Source: Chryseobacterium gleum
GTDB taxonomy: Bacteria; Bacteroidota; Bacteroidia; Flavobacteriales; Weeksellaceae
Direction: 5' to 3'
Assembly (NCBI RefSeq): GCF_900636535.1
Contig: NZ_LR134289.1
Span: 4,171,001-4,235,000, forward strand
DNA length: 64,000 bases
The notes under the pieces were generated by a model, which saw nothing but the letters and a program-made list of their open reading frames with translations, ran no database searches and was not told the origin of the DNA. Positions 1,716 through 41,514 of this stretch are shown here, piece after piece. Made by a program: the position numbers and the translations under genes. How positions within the stretch are numbered: the stretch's first letter is position 1; each line of letters begins with the position of its first letter.

Positions 1716-1751
1716 AAAAGCCTGAATTTACAACCGTAAGTTCAGGCTTTT
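1716..1751. terminator. Rho-independent terminator
   Basis: The inverted repeat AAAAGCCTGAA / TTCAGGCTTTT has a partly pairing loop and is followed by TATTTTTT. It lies between the repeat elements and the DUF2589 promoter, so it insulates the cassette from upstream transcription. Confidence 0.75.
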
Positions 1752-1855: not shown

Positions 1856-2743
1856 ATGGAAACATTAAAATCAGTGCTTGAAGCAAGCCACGCTAAAAAA
1901 ACAAAAAATGAGTTAATTGATCTCTTATCAGGAGTAGAAAAAGTACTGACCCCAGCGGTCTATGAAAAAGTATCAGGAATCGAAACTTCAGAATTGAGTT
2001 CATTAACCAATAAGGAGTTGTTAGCGATTGTAGATGAATTCAAAAAGAATTATGATGAAAAGTGGGAAAAATCTTTTTCCGGTGCCTCTTCAGAAATTAT
2101 GAAGCTTATTGCCGGAAAAATGGCTGCCGATGATGAGATCTTCAGAACTTCAGATGCTGCCAGCGCAGATTTTGCTGCAGAACTGGGAAGTATTGACTTT
2201 GCCACCATTATTGGCGGACCTTTGGATGCCTGTGTAAAAGCGCAGTCCAACGCTTCTATAGCTACCGTTAATTTCATCAATGAAGTCGGTTTTGAGCTTA
2301 CAGATCCTGCCAATGCAGCAAGTGCTAAAAAACTGAGAATGGCAGAGTTCAAATACAAAAAAAATATTCCCAATCCGGATTTTAAAGAAGATGAGCCAGT
2401 AAGTGATACCAACCCTAAGACGATTCCTAATGATGTGGAAATTTCAGTGCCTTTTATTGCGCTGCTGAATGTTCCGAGCTTCAGAATTGAAACCTGTGAA
2501 GTAGACTTTAATGTGAAACTTAATTCTACATACACCAAAGATGTAAGTGACGAGTTCGGTATCAATGCAGGAGTATCCGGTGGCTGGGGGCCTGTGAAAT
2601 TCAAAGTGGATGTTTCCTATAAAAGAACTTCCAGTACAGGAATCAAAGTGGAAAAAGAATATTCTCTTGGGGTAAAAGTACGCGCAACCAATGATGAAAT
2701 GCCTGCAGGACTTGAAAAAGTACTTGGACTTCTTTCACAATAA
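1856..2743 (+). CDS. DUF2589-like protein, first gene of subtilase cassette
   Basis: A 295-residue protein with no signal peptide or membrane segment. Residues 1-130 look helical and acidic/lysine-rich. The segment near residues 195-290 (PFIALLNVPSFRIETCEVDF, then NVKLNSTYTK and later VKFKVDVSYKR) has the I-P-L/V-x-x-x-P-S-hydrophobic-alternating beta pattern I associate with DUF2589 (PF11655), a family of unknown function. It is followed after 15 bp by another unknown gene and then by a leaderless subtilisin-like protease, all on the same strand. The function is unknown. From its neighbours it may be the substrate or structural partner of the protease, but that is inference. Confidence 0.7.
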   Translation: METLKSVLEASHAKKTKNELIDLLSGVEKVLTPAVYEKVSGIETSELSSLTNKELLAIVDEFKKNYDEKWEKSFSGASSEIMKLIAGKMAADDEIFRTSDAASADFAAELGSIDFATIIGGPLDACVKAQSNASIATVNFINEVGFELTDPANAASAKKLRMAEFKYKKNIPNPDFKEDEPVSDTNPKTIPNDVEISVPFIALLNVPSFRIETCEVDFNVKLNSTYTKDVSDEFGINAGVSGGWGPVKFKVDVSYKRTSSTGIKVEKEYSLGVKVRATNDEMPAGLEKVLGLLSQ

Positions 2744-2758
2744 AACATTTTACGAAAA

Positions 2759-3454
2759 ATGATAAAATTATCAGATTACCTGGATTATCTCAACAATGAG
2801 ATAATTCAGGCTCGTAAAAAAGCTGACGAGAATGCTGTTCTTATTGCCAAAGAATATGCCCGTCATGAATATCTTAAGTATTTTAAGGTCCCGAGATATG
2901 CACTGCCCAGTGTAAAGATGGATATTCCCATCAAAATAACGGATATCGATTCAGATTCCAAATATAATTTTAAGCTGAACCAGGATCAGTTCGTTACCGA
3001 AATAAATGAGAGAATCCACCTGGCAAACAAAGAGAAAAACCTGAATATTCCTGAAATCAGTAAAAGACAGCTCCAGACCGAGGAGTTCAAAACGCTGTTC
3101 AATACACTGGAAAAAAATGATCAGAAATTCGGTAAGCTCCCTTCTGCAGAAGTTCTAAAGCTGGATCTCAGGAAAAAAGTCCAGCTTCTTAATTCCGGAA
3201 TCTTCAGGCCTCAGGAAGGAACAACAGAAGAAACTGATGAGCTGAAAGAAATTTTTTCAAAGGTTCTCCTGAATAAATATACGCTGGTGAATGCGAAGCT
3301 GAATAATATTTACATAGATCCCAATACCAGCGCAGCGGAAGATAAAGATAAGCTGTTTATCAATCTCCATGTGGAAATGGAAGAAGAAGGAATCAGGATT
3401 GTCTCCTACAAAGATAAAGACGGTAATGAAATAGAACAGATAACTTTTGAGTAA
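2759..3454 (+). CDS. Unknown protein, DUF2589 partner
   Basis: A 231-residue soluble protein that I do not recognise with certainty. The N-terminal 40 residues are a charged helix (DYLNNEIIQARKKADENA). They are followed by VPRYALPSVKMDIPIKITDI, which resembles the proline-containing beta segment of DUF2589-type proteins. The C-terminal part alternates helix and strand and is acidic. Its stop codon overlaps the next start by one base (TAATG at 3452-3456), so translation is probably coupled. No signal peptide is visible, which places it in the cytoplasm with the other products of this cassette. Confidence 0.7.
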   Translation: MIKLSDYLDYLNNEIIQARKKADENAVLIAKEYARHEYLKYFKVPRYALPSVKMDIPIKITDIDSDSKYNFKLNQDQFVTEINERIHLANKEKNLNIPEISKRQLQTEEFKTLFNTLEKNDQKFGKLPSAEVLKLDLRKKVQLLNSGIFRPQEGTTEETDELKEIFSKVLLNKYTLVNAKLNNIYIDPNTSAAEDKDKLFINLHVEMEEEGIRIVSYKDKDGNEIEQITFE

Positions 3455-4032
3455 TGCAGGAACTTATTCACTTTACGGTACAGAAAATCAAAGAACTGCT
3501 GGAGCATTTCAATGAAATTCAGACGCTCTATCTGTCGAAATCATTTGACTTTGATGCCCGTCTTGATGTATTTCTCAACGAAGTGCTGGAGTATTTCCGT
3601 ACAAAAGGAAACACCAGCCACGAATCTGAAGTGCTGAAAATTATGAATATGATTGCAACCGTTAAAAGAGGTTTTAATCCTATAAAAATGGAGAAAATAC
3701 TAACTGGAAGACGTGAAATTCTCGGAGGATTTTCATTCAACGGAATGGAAAGTATTTATGGAATTCTGATGGAAATATATACCAGGGAAAATAAAAAGCT
3801 TGAGGAGGCGGAAGAGCTTATTTCGGGAATCATTGTATCCCTGTATCAGAACGGGATTCTTGATGATGAAAAATTAAAAGAAATGAATTCTGTTCCTAAA
3901 ATTGAACGTTTCTGGACTTCGCTGGCTGAGCAGAATACAGCCATATCCGGAATTAATAAGAAGCTCAGGCTGACCATTATTCCTGAAGATATTTTCCTTA
4001 TTCTGGAAAAAATATTTCTGAAGTTAATTTAA
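3454..4032 (+). CDS. Unknown helical protein in subtilase cassette
   Basis: A 192-residue protein that appears almost entirely alpha-helical (ELIHFTVQKIKELLEHF, then a long run of amphipathic segments) and ends in a hydrophobic stretch, DIFLILEKIFLKLI. No catalytic motif, signal peptide or known domain could be recognised. It overlaps the preceding gene by one base and lies 11 bp upstream of the protease gene. An adaptor or scaffold role is possible but is not shown by the sequence. Confidence 0.7.
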   Translation: MQELIHFTVQKIKELLEHFNEIQTLYLSKSFDFDARLDVFLNEVLEYFRTKGNTSHESEVLKIMNMIATVKRGFNPIKMEKILTGRREILGGFSFNGMESIYGILMEIYTRENKKLEEAEELISGIIVSLYQNGILDDEKLKEMNSVPKIERFWTSLAEQNTAISGINKKLRLTIIPEDIFLILEKIFLKLI

Positions 4033-4043
4033 AAAAGAACCTT

Positions 4044-5306
4044 ATGGAAACCGGAAGATATATTGTATTGCTGAAAGATCAGCAGAAGACATCGCTCAAA
4101 AAAATAGAGAAAGAACTGGAAGTGAGTATTACTTCATCAGAATTTCTTTCCAAAGAAAACCGTTCCTATGAAGTGATCGATCAGGATAACAGTGTGCTTT
4201 ATAAAAATCTTGGAGTTCTTGTCGTGGATCATATGGATGAAGAACAATTGAAAAGCGCCGTTAAAGATGAATCCAATTCTATAGTTTACTATGAAAAAGA
4301 ACGTGAGTTTTTTCCGGCAGATGAACTGCAGCTGATCAACGAACTTAAAAAACAGTCTGCAGGGCTGGCAGAAAAAATTTCAGAGCTTGAAAAATATATG
4401 ACCAGCAAGCCTTTACCTCAAAAATCATTCACTGAGATGGAATGGGGATTACAGGCAATAGGTTTAGAAAATACTCATTACACAGGAAAAGGAATTGATA
4501 TCTGTATTCTTGATACAGGCCTTGAAACCTCCCATCCCGATTTTTCATCTGAAGAAATTGAAGGCAAATCTTTCATAGATGGTGAAGACTGGAACAGGGA
4601 TCCTAACGGACATGGTACACACTGTGCAGGAATTGCCACCGGAAACGTAAGAAGTGATACCGGAAAACGTTATGGAGTAGCTAAGGATTCCAACCTGAAA
4701 ATAGCAAAAGTATTGGCTGATAACGGAAGAGGTACTACCAGCAGTGTGATTGATGCAATAGACTGGGCGATTACGAAGAAGTTCAGAATACTGTCATTAT
4801 CGCTGGCATGTCCGGTGAAGCTTGACGACCAGCCTTCTGTTCTTTTTGAAACCATTGGGGAAAGAGCGTTGGAAAATAACTGTCTTATTATAGCAGCTGC
4901 AGGAAATGACAGCAACAGACCGCAGATTCCACAGCCCGTTTCAATGCCTGCCAATTCAAAATCGATTATGGCTGTAGGAGCTATTGACAGCCAGATGAAG
5001 ATCGCAAGATTTTCAAATGCAGGGCTTAACCCATCTACCGGTGGAAGTATCAATGTCTGTGCTCCCGGAGTGGATATTGTAAGCGCCTATCCTAAAAATG
5101 CAAAGAACAAAAACAATTTTTATTATACAATGAGCGGTACCAGTATGGCTGCACCACATGTTTCAGGGCTTGCAGCCTTATATATGGAGCAGTTTCCTGA
5201 AAAATCAGCCAAAGAAATCTGGGAGCTTATTGAACATAAAGCAAGGCCGGTTGAAGGCATAAAATACAGAGATATAGGAAATGGTTTAATACAGGTATAC
5301 TTATGA
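4044..5306 (+). CDS. Leaderless S8 (subtilisin-like) serine protease with N-terminal prodomain
   Basis: A 420-residue protein. Residues 1-95 resemble a subtilisin propeptide (inhibitor I9 fold): RYIVLLKD at the start and GVLVVDHMDEEQLKSA before an acidic end. Residues 98-125 form a short coiled-coil-like linker (ELKKQSAGLAEKISELEKYM). The catalytic domain has Asp157 (ILDTGLE), His190 (GHGTHCAGIATG), oxyanion Asn288 (AAAGND) and Ser367 (SGTSMAAPHVSG), so all key residues are present. There is no signal peptide and no T9SS tail, unlike the secreted S8 protease at 52815-54473, so it probably acts in the cytoplasm. The last four bases overlap the start of a 67-residue gene that looks like a second, free propeptide. 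Confidence 0.9.
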   Translation: METGRYIVLLKDQQKTSLKKIEKELEVSITSSEFLSKENRSYEVIDQDNSVLYKNLGVLVVDHMDEEQLKSAVKDESNSIVYYEKEREFFPADELQLINELKKQSAGLAEKISELEKYMTSKPLPQKSFTEMEWGLQAIGLENTHYTGKGIDICILDTGLETSHPDFSSEEIEGKSFIDGEDWNRDPNGHGTHCAGIATGNVRSDTGKRYGVAKDSNLKIAKVLADNGRGTTSSVIDAIDWAITKKFRILSLSLACPVKLDDQPSVLFETIGERALENNCLIIAAAGNDSNRPQIPQPVSMPANSKSIMAVGAIDSQMKIARFSNAGLNPSTGGSINVCAPGVDIVSAYPKNAKNKNNFYYTMSGTSMAAPHVSGLAALYMEQFPEKSAKEIWELIEHKARPVEGIKYRDIGNGLIQVYL

Positions 5307-5506
5307 AAACTTATCTGGCAGTTTTAAAAAAAGACATCAATTTTAAAGAGCTTGAAATCCTTCTTAAAAATAAAGAGATCAAACTTGCGGCCCATTATAA
5401 AACCATTGGCGTTGTGAAACTTGAAAGTGCATTGCCGGTTTCTGAAACTGAATTTCAGGCATATTTTATATCTGTAGAAGAAGAAAAAGATAATTTAACA
5501 ATATAA
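5303..5506 (+). CDS. Small protein resembling a free-standing subtilisin propeptide/inhibitor
   Basis: A 67-residue protein that starts inside the protease stop codon (ATGA overlap, 5303-5306). It opens MKTYLAVLKKDINFKELE and continues IGVVKLESALPVSETEF, the same order of elements as I9 propeptides (Y-hydrophobic-VxLK, helix, G-hydrophobic strand) and as residues 1-95 of the neighbouring protease. It ends in an acidic tail (SVEEEKDNLTI). The likely role is an in-trans inhibitor or folding helper of the protease, comparable to stand-alone I9 inhibitors. The assignment rests on weak similarity read by eye. Confidence 0.65.
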   Translation: MKTYLAVLKKDINFKELEILLKNKEIKLAAHYKTIGVVKLESALPVSETEFQAYFISVEEEKDNLTI

Positions 5507-5520
5507 TCATATAAATCAGG

Positions 5521-5545
5521 CTTCTCTGTCAAAGAGAAGTTTTAT
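5521..5545 (+). terminator. Terminator of DUF2589-subtilase cassette
   Basis: The stem CTTCTCT / AGAGAAG (5521-5527 with 5533-5539) has a 5-nt loop and is followed by TTTTATTTTTG. It sits 15 bp after the last gene, which supports the five genes forming one transcription unit. Confidence 0.7.
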
Positions 5546-38843: not shown

Positions 38844-39755
38844 TTACTGTTCAACTATTGTAAGTGAATTATAGGCTCCGTTTCCTGAAGTATCAAACTG
38901 ACTGATTGTGCCATCAAATGCTACGGTAATCCAGGTAAAAGGTCTTAATTTGTCCCCTTTATTTAAATATACACTTACGGTACAGGCAGACCCTACGGGT
39001 ACAGCATTGGGACTTGCACCTGTATCAGAAGAATATCCATTATTTGTCTTTATCCTTTGTGTGATTGTGCCACTCGGATTTCTCACTTCCCAGATTGCTT
39101 CAGTTTGATTGTTAGATCCTGTATTTACCTGGCTTGATTGTAATGCGAAAGTAAAAGTTGCAAAATAGACACCATCACGCGGAGCCACAAATTCACCGGT
39201 AGCCGGATTGAAATTTGAGGTAGGAACCCCGGAATCCGAGTCTAATTTCTCAGTCCAGTTAGTTAAATAAGAAGATCTTCTTTGAACAATGCCGGATTTA
39301 GTTCCTATTTCTGAAGGCGTAACACTTTCAAATACATAAGTATCCTGAGTTGTTTTGCTTGCCATTACAATGATACGCGGTTTCCCTTTAGGAAAAAAGC
39401 TCACCCAGTTTGAACCGTCGGAAAACTCCAGATAGCCTTTCACACCAATCGCAGGGCTTGCTACATAGCGTAATGCACCTGCACCCGCTTGGGCTGCTGT
39501 TTTAGTAGTATTTCCGATAGCTACAGAACCATTTACATTGCTGCGCAGATCCAGTGCTACTTTTGGATTAGTAACTAATGTGCCTATTTTTCCGGAATTA
39601 TCAATGATAATGTTACCTGCATCTGTCTTAACTTCCACAGGGTTGGTTGGATTGGATAATCCTATTCCTATTTGAGCATTGATATAGTTTATGTTGAATG
39701 ATAAAGCAATAAAAATACTAATCAATCTTTTTATTTTATTCTTTGATTTCATCAT
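38844..39755 (-). CDS. Secreted protein with C1q-like C-terminal domain (paralogue 3)
   Basis: A 303-residue protein with a signal peptide (INAQ cleavage). The N-terminal part has IGIGLSNPTNPVEVKT and the NPKVALDLRSNVNGSVAIGN repeat, the 'N-P-x-x-x-L-D' stalk motif of Bacteroidota surface proteins. The C-terminal 140 residues, FNPATGEFVAPRDGVYFATFTF to the end (YNSLTIVEQ), match the C1q/TNF-like jelly roll, which trimerises. It is the third of three tandem paralogues spaced by 9-10 bp. Confidence 0.75.
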   Translation of the reverse strand: MMKSKNKIKRLISIFIALSFNINYINAQIGIGLSNPTNPVEVKTDAGNIIIDNSGKIGTLVTNPKVALDLRSNVNGSVAIGNTTKTAAQAGAGALRYVASPAIGVKGYLEFSDGSNWVSFFPKGKPRIIVMASKTTQDTYVFESVTPSEIGTKSGIVQRRSSYLTNWTEKLDSDSGVPTSNFNPATGEFVAPRDGVYFATFTFALQSSQVNTGSNNQTEAIWEVRNPSGTITQRIKTNNGYSSDTGASPNAVPVGSACTVSVYLNKGDKLRPFTWITVAFDGTISQFDTSGNGAYNSLTIVEQ

Positions 39756-39764
39756 TATATATTA

Positions 39765-40610
39765 TTACAATTCACTGATACTTAAATTATTCAATTTGCT
39801 GTCATTGAGAATGCTTCTCGCACTGCCTATATTATGCTTCACGGTGAATTTTATGGTATCATCTTTTTTAAGATTGAAAATAGCATTACAATTACCGCTT
39901 ATAAAATTACTTACTGCACCGGCCTGAAAAGCAGGATAAGAGTTTACTGTTTTAAATACAGGAATATTATTGATGCTTTGGCTGCTTTCTATTGCGGTTT
40001 CTATAAAGGTATTTTTAGGGATATTTCCGTTAGCCAGAGTAATATTGAAAGAAACAAGATAAAAACCATCACGCGGAGCTTTAAAAAGCCCGGTAATCGG
40101 ATCAAAATCTCCACCTCCTGCACCTAGGTCCACTGTTTCTGTCCAGCCTGTAATGGTTGTCGTCGTTCCACTGGGAATACTTTGTGCAGAACTGTTACTT
40201 GCATTTACAAGTGCTTTGGTAGGAGGAGTAAGGGGCAAAGCTATCCATTGCTCACCATCAGAATATTCCAGATATCCGCCGGTGTTGTAACGTATTGCTC
40301 CTCCGCCAGCTGAAGAAGGGCTCTGTGTATTGCTACCCAAACCAATAATTCTTTGATCACTTGAAGATCTGAGATCAACCCTGGTAACCGGATTTAAAAC
40401 TCCAACCCCTATCTGACCTTCTGATGTAATGACAACATCATTGGATATTTTTGTCGCATCAGGGGAAGAACCGTTATCTTTTCCGGCATCTATATGCAAG
40501 GGTTGTGCAGGATCAGGGGTGAAAAAACCAACCTGAGCAGTTGTTTTAATGGCGAAAAGAAATAAAAGAGAAGAAAATAGTTTATAAGTTATATTGATTT
40601 TCTTTTTCAT
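39765..40610 (-). CDS. Secreted protein with C1q-like C-terminal domain (paralogue 2)
   Basis: A 281-residue protein with a signal peptide (KTTAQ). The N-terminal stalk reads DPAQPLHIDAGKDNGSSPDA and LNPVTRVDLRSSSDQRIIGLG. The C1q-like region starts at FDPITGLFKAPRDGFYLVSF and ends LNNLSISEL. It resembles its two neighbours along the whole length; the regions between the motifs have diverged strongly. Ligand and function are unknown. Confidence 0.75.
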   Translation of the reverse strand: MKKKINITYKLFSSLLFLFAIKTTAQVGFFTPDPAQPLHIDAGKDNGSSPDATKISNDVVITSEGQIGVGVLNPVTRVDLRSSSDQRIIGLGSNTQSPSSAGGGAIRYNTGGYLEYSDGEQWIALPLTPPTKALVNASNSSAQSIPSGTTTTITGWTETVDLGAGGGDFDPITGLFKAPRDGFYLVSFNITLANGNIPKNTFIETAIESSQSINNIPVFKTVNSYPAFQAGAVSNFISGNCNAIFNLKKDDTIKFTVKHNIGSARSILNDSKLNNLSISEL

Positions 40611-40620
40611 GATCTATATC

Positions 40621-41514
40621 TTAATGTTCTATTATAGTTAGATTGTTAAATCCATCATCCGGATTGGCAGGATCTGAAGAATTACTTGTAACTCTGAGTG
40701 GAATAGCACCTGAAGTAAGGTTCTGATACAATCTCGCACTTACCTTAGTACCTGCAGTTAAAGTAAGGGTAACAGTACTTGATCCTCCAGCCTGTGTTGA
40801 ACGTGTAGCATTTGCATCATCAGCTGTACCAGTCATAGATTGGCCAAAAGTTTTATATACGCTGGCAAGAACAATACCTGTAGCGGGATTATAAAACTGG
40901 GATTCAACTCTGGAACCATCATTAATAACTGCACCTGTGAAATTGAATGTTAACAGAAAGGTATAAGTTCCGTTTCGGGGAGCTGTAAATTCACCGGTGC
41001 TGGGATCAAAGCTATTGCTCATATCACGAACTTCACTCCAGTTAGTGATAGTTGTGGGAGTGGCTGTTGGTATCGACTGGCTTACTATTTTACGGACCAC
41101 AACAACTGCTTTTTGAGGGGCAAGATAAACCTTGTTCCATACTGCACCATCAGATACCTGAATTTTAGCTCCTACAGGTATATTGTTTACATCATACCGT
41201 GTAGCACCCGCACCTGCTGCCACTGCCGACATGCTGGTCGTCCCTAAACCAAGTGAATTTTCACTTCCTGCTGATCTCATATCCAACTGAACCAGAGGAT
41301 TAAGAACTCCTGCTCCAATAAAACCTGTTGTTTTATTTATAATAACATCATTAGAAAGCTGTGCTGATGTCGGTACACCTGAAGCGGGATTGTCTTTAGC
41401 ACCATCTACATGTAAACTTCCTAAAGGGTTATTTGTTCCTATACCTATTTGTGCATTAAATACATAGGTAAAGAAACAAAAAGGAAGTATTAATAATTTG
41501 TGTTTTTTAATCAT
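40621..41514 (-). CDS. Secreted protein with C1q-like C-terminal domain (paralogue 1)
   Basis: A 297-residue protein, first of the three-gene unit. It has a signal peptide (FFTYVFNAQ) and then IGIGTNNPLGSLHVDGAKDN, typical of the repeated head/stalk motif of many flavobacterial secreted proteins. The C1q-like domain starts at FDPSTGEFTAPRNGTYTFLL and ends FNNLTIIEH. No T9SS sorting tail is visible, so it is likely secreted or surface-bound by another route. The 569-bp upstream gap should hold its promoter, but no consensus box was found on the minus strand. Confidence 0.75.
   Translation of the reverse strand: MIKKHKLLILPFCFFTYVFNAQIGIGTNNPLGSLHVDGAKDNPASGVPTSAQLSNDVIINKTTGFIGAGVLNPLVQLDMRSAGSENSLGLGTTSMSAVAAGAGATRYDVNNIPVGAKIQVSDGAVWNKVYLAPQKAVVVVRKIVSQSIPTATPTTITNWSEVRDMSNSFDPSTGEFTAPRNGTYTFLLTFNFTGAVINDGSRVESQFYNPATGIVLASVYKTFGQSMTGTADDANATRSTQAGGSSTVTLTLTAGTKVSARLYQNLTSGAIPLRVTSNSSDPANPDDGFNNLTIIEH

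Follow-up and report, generated by a model that had tools for sequence, protein, structure and literature searches.

A conserved five-gene unit in Chryseobacterium gleum combines a DUF2589 gene trio with a leaderless subtilase and its putative inhibitor

We analyzed a gene cassette in a 64,000-nucleotide stretch of the Chryseobacterium gleum genome (contig NZ_LR134289.1, positions 4,171,001 to 4,235,000; here called the window). Five open reading frames (ORFs) are packed on the plus strand at positions 1856-5506, with gaps of +15, -1, +11, and -4 bp as computed from the ORF coordinates (Table 1). Gene 1 matches the DUF2589 family PF11655 at 88.3 bits (cut-off, 23) and is the one DUF2589 match in the host genome (5.6 Mb, one contig). 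For genes 2, 3, and 5, scans of Pfam, NCBIfam, PADLOC, and PHROGs gave no credible family, and a sequence search against solved structures returned nothing below E 0.05 for genes 1, 2, 3, and 5. The proteins are nearest to those of Chryseobacterium, reaching 98% to a C. gleum protein. A first-pass annotation, made from the letters of the window alone, had described five co-directional, tightly spaced genes whose products lack a signal peptide. The coordinates bear out the former, and the latter agrees with the low hydropathy of the first 40 residues, by which we judged export status (best 11-residue value, 0.22-1.11 in all five, against 2.65 and 2.95 in two window proteins with export-type starts). 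The annotation had also bounded the cassette with terminators. Terminator-like stems do lie on both sides, but the consensus scan found 8 sites in 4.4 kb where 2.8 were expected, so any single site is weak evidence. No match to the Bacteroidetes-type promoter pattern was found upstream of the cassette.

Table 1. Features of the five-gene cassette, in window positions
Feature	Position	Strand	Basis
Terminator-like stem upstream of cassette	1716..1751	+	16 pairs, T tail; consensus scan
Gene 1, DUF2589 protein, 295 amino acids (aa)	1856..2743	+	PF11655, E 8.7e-25
Gene 1 N-terminal extension, residues 1-116 (helical 1-87, low-confidence 88-116)	1856..2203	+	Low-confidence model
Gene 1 DUF2589 core, residues 117-295 (long helix, then mostly strands)	2204..2740	+	Pfam; low-confidence model (<50 from residue 217)
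Gene 2, 231 aa, no assigned family	2759..3454	+	Conserved N-terminal and C-terminal blocks
Gene 3, 192 aa, no assigned family	3454..4032	+	Helical-looking by sequence
Gene 4, leaderless S8 subtilase, 420 aa	4044..5306	+	Peptidase_S8; hydropathy
Gene 4 prodomain, I9-like pattern, residues 1-93	4044..4322	+	Protease comparison; pooled profile match
Gene 4 catalytic domain, residues 148-404	4485..5255	+	Peptidase_S8; triad comparison
Gene 4 triad codons	D157 4512-4514; H190 4611-4613; S367 5142-5144	+	
Gene 5, 67 aa, propeptide-like putative inhibitor, 4-base overlap with gene 4 end	5303..5506	+	Fold model
Terminator-like stem downstream of cassette	5518..5542	+	10 pairs; consensus scan

Gene 4 belongs to the S8 family (Peptidase_S8, PF00082, E 2.6e-53). 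The Asp157/His190/Ser367 triad that had been read as intact is kept, together with the oxyanion residue N288, in 46 of 46 proteases compared (sequences of >380 aa scoring >400 bits, the window included). In PADLOC it matches models of the subtilase type, among them one named "subtilase" (E 6.3e-27), in the catalytic region. The N-terminal ~100 residues show an I9-like pattern, and the prodomain matches the free small proteins at a probability of 65% with the pooled profile and near zero with narrower pools.

Gene 5 had been labeled a propeptide. None of 15 gene 5 members matched PF05922 at E values up to 10, so the label finds no backing as a sequence family, but the fold lends it some. Subtilisin propeptides top the Foldseek list of the gene 5 model and share the top VIA rank, although unrelated ferredoxin-like folds tie with them, and the second helix is unassigned. 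From the modeled fold and the gene order, we infer that gene 5 encodes a propeptide-like putative inhibitor of gene 4. The comparisons support one conserved unit that contains a leaderless protease and a dedicated inhibitor-like partner.

To follow the cassette beyond C. gleum, we scanned a species-level genome collection with the gene 2 alignment and obtained 49 loci. All five genes are unbroken and in the same order in 42 of them, and the conserved linkage that the first-pass annotation had proposed as a check is thereby established. The search recovered 41 of these; the last, L076, has a divergent gene 5 that we recognized by eye. Genes 1 and 2 occur in all 49 loci (some broken), genes 3 and 4 in 48 each (gene 4 whole or partial), and gene 5 in L076 and in 45 loci recovered by the search. 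The incomplete loci lie at contig ends (L057 and L059) or are frameshifted (L054, L064, L075, L077, and L079). The protease start of L064 is in a different frame, and in L075 the genes flanking the cassette on both sides are broken as well, which points to sequencing errors. Spacing is kept too, at -1 or 0 between genes 2 and 3 in 46 of 48 loci and at -8 to +14 between genes 4 and 5 in 43 of 43. Order and spacing maintained in distant genomes are more than chance would give. The cassette is a genuine, conserved, and old gene unit, and we found no published description of it among the matches listed in our searches of open-licence literature.

The hosts comprise Flavobacteriales, Bacteroidales, and Saprospiraceae, with the cassette in several unrelated genomic slots. 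In most Chryseobacterium genomes it follows an SDR gene (PF13561 in L063) or an M1-peptidase gene and precedes an endonuclease/phosphatase-type gene. In the Petrimonas relatives (L060, L062, and L068), a hybrid two-component regulator lies ~125-240 bp upstream on the same strand (TPR, histidine kinase, receiver, and AraC domains in L060), and a small AraC-type gene lies downstream. L072 has a hybrid two-component/AraC regulator of the L060 type upstream. In these Bacteroidales, the regulator (L060:3046-5916 and L072:2972-5830, on the strand of the cassette) may control the cassette. The Saprospiraceae locus L076 and the Bacteroidetes metagenome-assembled genome L078 have other neighbors again. 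Unrelated neighbors across lineages mean that the linkage is not mere synteny. A quick protease tree of 29 rows places the five-gene enzymes in a single clade (SH-aLRT, 99). Inside this clade, the two Bacteroidales rows fall together with six Chryseobacterium rows (98), leaving Chryseobacterium sp. MFBS3-17 and Amniculibacterium outside that group, a placement suggesting that the cassette has been transferred as a unit.

Within the genus, 35 of 118 genomes carry a close-type gene 2, and the same 35 carry a close-type gene 4 (the two lists were matched by hand; gene 2 is broken in G339 and G355). In G326, which lacks gene 2, what is left of the protease is 72% identical and interrupted by two stops, and five other genomes have a more distant subtilase (35-41% identity). 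A distant-type gene 2 alone occurs in 14 genomes, and G319 and G339 have both types.

The cassette joins two separable modules, the trio of DUF2589, gene 2, and gene 3 on the one hand and the leaderless subtilase with its small protein on the other. PF11655 was detected in 19 of 296 Bacteroidota genomes, our own included. In 8 of 15 wider DUF2589 regions, relatives of genes 2 and 3 stand close to DUF2589 without a subtilase, as found with profiles built partly from these same loci; one of the regions, L090, has a second DUF2589 copy within the trio. Used by itself, the near-family gene 2 profile gave 17-59 bits for all eight protease-free trios, and a profile of the distant third genes matches gene 3 at E 4e-10. 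Profile comparisons gave 99% for the gene 2 relatives and 95% for the gene 3 relatives. The other seven regions have a gene 2 relative only (L080 and L084) or neither (L081, L088, L089, L093, and L094). All 15 genus regions with a distant gene 2 also contain DUF2589 and gene 3 relatives and have no subtilase within 4 kb. A reading of gene 2 as a split DUF2589 relative had only a weak profile match (13.7%) and is not claimed. Source names of gene 2 and gene 3 relatives (P0004, P0035, and P0126: YfkK, phage tail tape measure, and MazG-type) conflict with one another and found no support in family scans of the window proteins.

Another effector considered for the trio is a patatin gene, which precedes all 16 protease-free genus trios examined (L083 and L124-L138; gaps, 308-845 bp) on the strand of the trio and resembles a CBASS lipase model (161 bits; cut-off, 200). 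A partnership was rejected, since 116 of the 118 genus genomes carry the patatin and the majority of these have no trio; the patatin is a core gene next to an insertion site and not a partner effector. At 15 of these 16 loci there is also an M15-type peptidase frame, and very large frames (~480-1775 aa) lie beyond the trio in L083, L132-L135, and L138; the three that were scanned against Pfam gave no match. A scan of IMG/VR with the cassette-type DUF2589 gave no relative; the protease-free type gave one. As a query, the protease-free type found one (distant) record in the phage set and four in the plasmid set. The IMG/VR contig L141 has a DUF2586 gene, which we take to be of the tail-sheath type, near M15-type peptidase, patatin, and DUF2589 frames, and a prophage may lie at the patatin-trio hotspot there. 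In L092 (2622-6815), a TcB-like gene (SpvB and TcdB middle regions) follows the DUF2589 trio by 233 bp on the same strand. On the Vibrio plasmid L097, an ABC-HlyD secretion pair is followed by two DUF2589 frames, of which one is annotated, and a TcdA/TcdB-type glycosyltransferase-domain gene is nearby. In L081 (5165-9283), a trypsin-like peptidase stands in a row on one strand with two DUF2589 genes and a zinc-ribbon-like frame, a second, unrelated serine protease together with DUF2589.

The other module likewise occurs on its own. Related subtilases with no DUF2589 nearby are followed by a gene of 67-87 aa, from a 4-base overlap to 138 bases away. Our sample consisted of 9 of the 20 plasmid matches listed (396 records matching) and all 8 non-cassette Bacteroidota matches. 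The small downstream gene is present beside 12 of 12 leaderless subtilases (L099-L106, L139, L140, L114, and L115) and beside none of the 5 that have a leader or membrane anchor (L107, L113, L116, L117, and L118), leader status being judged by eye, with a start in L104 that looks broken and some annotated starts that are possibly wrong. L118 has an unrelated-looking 96-aa frame downstream. Half of the leaderless relatives (6/12) match gene 4 over nearly its full length, the other half in the catalytic part only. Hosts of the pair without DUF2589 close by are Methylobacterium, Hymenobacter, Streptomyces, Deinococcus, Rhizobium, Palleronia, Vibrio, and other Bacteroidota. At higher rank, the pair was seen in Bacteroidota, Alpha- and Gammaproteobacteria, Actinomycetota, and Deinococcota.

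The two modules may meet at the N terminus of gene 1. The core motif of DUF2589 lies at residues 119-136 in 46 of 51 rows with a subtilase and at residues 16-21 in 26 of 33 rows without one; in the remaining rows, the motif is absent or the sequences are fragments or L057 at a contig end. Wherever the motif can be placed, the extra ~100-aa N-terminal part is found only beside the subtilase. In the model of gene 1, the extension is helical with a block pLDDT of 73-85 for residues 1-70 and low confidence at 88-116. The core beyond residue 217 is as uncertain in the model as residues 88-116. Most simply, the extension is read as a part that can be removed or that serves for docking, and it is a candidate substrate or docking site of the protease, although the association of extension and protease may also stem from a single ancestral event. 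As the extension occurs only beside the protease, action of the protease on the DUF2589 protein, or retention by it, is plausible. The one mention of DUF2589 that we met in the literature concerns AF0414-AF0417, up-regulated on lactate; no mention of PF11655 was found in the open-licence literature searched.

We therefore weighed what the unit might do. In a proposal that we hold to be evenly balanced between right and wrong, the five genes form a functional unit of controlled intracellular proteolysis in two modules, with the subtilase docking on or cutting the gene 1 extension. Gene 4 would be a leaderless subtilase zymogen with its own I9-like prodomain, and gene 5, translated with it, would hold the mature enzyme inactive, as fold and gene order suggest. 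The trio would probably form a cytoplasmic or membrane-surface assembly. Were gene 5 lost or titrated away, the protease could then switch or dismantle the DUF2589 assembly, most likely through the gene 1 extension. More tentatively, and rather on the doubtful side, the cassette could be a previously undescribed switch of the cytoplasm: a subtilase that a free propeptide-like inhibitor restrains in trans would remove a dedicated N-terminal part of the DUF2589 protein and so toggle the three-protein assembly on or off, trio and protease-inhibitor pair being separately portable and the pair spread across several phyla.

The strongest competitor to this proposal, which we still consider unlikely, is that protease and inhibitor are a general intracellular protein-turnover pair, like the Bacillus intracellular subtilisin (ISP) and its inhibitor, and that the DUF2589 trio is a targeting or storage scaffold and not a substrate. 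The occurrence of the pair without nearby DUF2589 in many genera fits such a role, as do the intracellular serine proteases 7y6m and 7xr8 among the solved-sequence matches of gene 4, though secreted subtilisins rank first. Against it, the close-type protease accompanies gene 2 in 35 of 36 genomes of the genus, the 36th being the broken remnant. DUF2589 is also about as conserved as the enzyme (75 versus 68% in L060; 48 versus 51% in L076), which is more than a mere tag would need.

The first-pass annotation had likened the genes to protease-effector pairs of bacterial defense. In such a scheme, infection would free the protease, which would activate a DUF2589 effector in the manner of protease-activated gasdermins or pro-nucleases, for defense or abortive infection. 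The architecture does resemble protease-proprotein pairs (PMC12799240), and PADLOC IetS models match part of the catalytic domain (best E, 1.2e-15). Two of eight plasmid protease/small-protein pairs have defense-like neighbors, too few to weigh: DndB and a cytosine methyltransferase beside the pair of the Vibrio plasmid L106 and TIR and TPR genes near that of the Methylobacterium plasmid L099. However, gene 4 reaches only 24 bits with the NCBIfam IetS model, whose cut-off is 900, the library matches are of the subtilase type, the cassette sits mostly in a fixed Chryseobacterium slot with ordinary neighbors, and the patatin by the protease-free trio is the near-universal gene dealt with above. 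A defense role is not supported, and we regard it as distinctly improbable. Least probable of all is a mobile or phage-derived origin, in which the subtilase would serve to mature a structural or toxin-delivery assembly made by the trio: among PHROGs, gene 4 matches a phage "protease" best (phrog_3677, E 1.7e-65), and protease-free DUF2589 lies near the DUF2586 gene, the TcB-like gene, and the secretion operon described above, but no structural phage gene was found by PHROGs among 10 genes flanking the cassette (6 without a match at E 0.001 or in an unnamed family, the rest two-component, AraC-type, and FabG-like; other flanks were viewed by eye), and IMG/VR returned no relative of the cassette type and the phage set one distant DUF2589 record.

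Elsewhere in the window, three neighboring frames (303, 281, and 297 aa) that look alike and have export-type starts lie at 38844-41514.

DUF2589, a family of no known function, is here linked with two constant partner genes, a leaderless protease, and a candidate inhibitor of that protease, which makes its role directly testable. Pairing a leaderless subtilase with a small downstream protein could be how bacteria more generally keep such an enzyme from doing harm in the cell.

Among known systems, Bacillus ISPs have a short N-terminal prosegment with a LIPY-type motif, whereas gene 4 has an I9-like N-terminal domain of ~100 aa and its sequence contains no LIPY-type motif. To our knowledge, ISPs do not sit with DUF2589. 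The likeness lies in the lack of an export signal and in the putative separate small inhibitor, since ISPs are described as leaderless cytoplasmic S8 enzymes restrained by a prosegment and a separate small inhibitor (PMC3901451, on Isp1 and IPI, and PMC6220982). That inhibitor, IPI, has an Ig-like fold (PMC3901451), whereas gene 5 models as a propeptide-type fold. Plasmodium SUB1-ProM is a stand-alone propeptide-fold protein encoded beside subtilases, one of which it inhibits (PMC6993865), and gene 5 would likewise be a free propeptide-like protein adjoining a subtilase; SUB1-ProM is eukaryotic and acts in the parasitophorous vacuole, and the abstract mentions no DUF2589 partner. With the fungal inhibitor POIA1 and family I9 inhibitors, gene 5 shares 13% identity and no PF05922 match. 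Bacterial gasdermins and the protease-activated pro-nucleases, which act in defense (PMC12799240), resemble the cassette as operons of a protease and a putative protein substrate, but no gasdermin or nuclease family was matched by the five genes in Pfam, NCBIfam, or PADLOC, and the model of gene 1 is too weak to judge its fold. IetAS shares the S8 peptidase, with PADLOC IetS models on the catalytic region of gene 4, and differs in the NCBIfam score far below its cut-off and in an ATPase, a family that Pfam did not find among the five genes. Set beside these systems, the cassette, undescribed in the literature searched, falls among proteases paired with a putative inhibitor, here coupled to a module of three genes.

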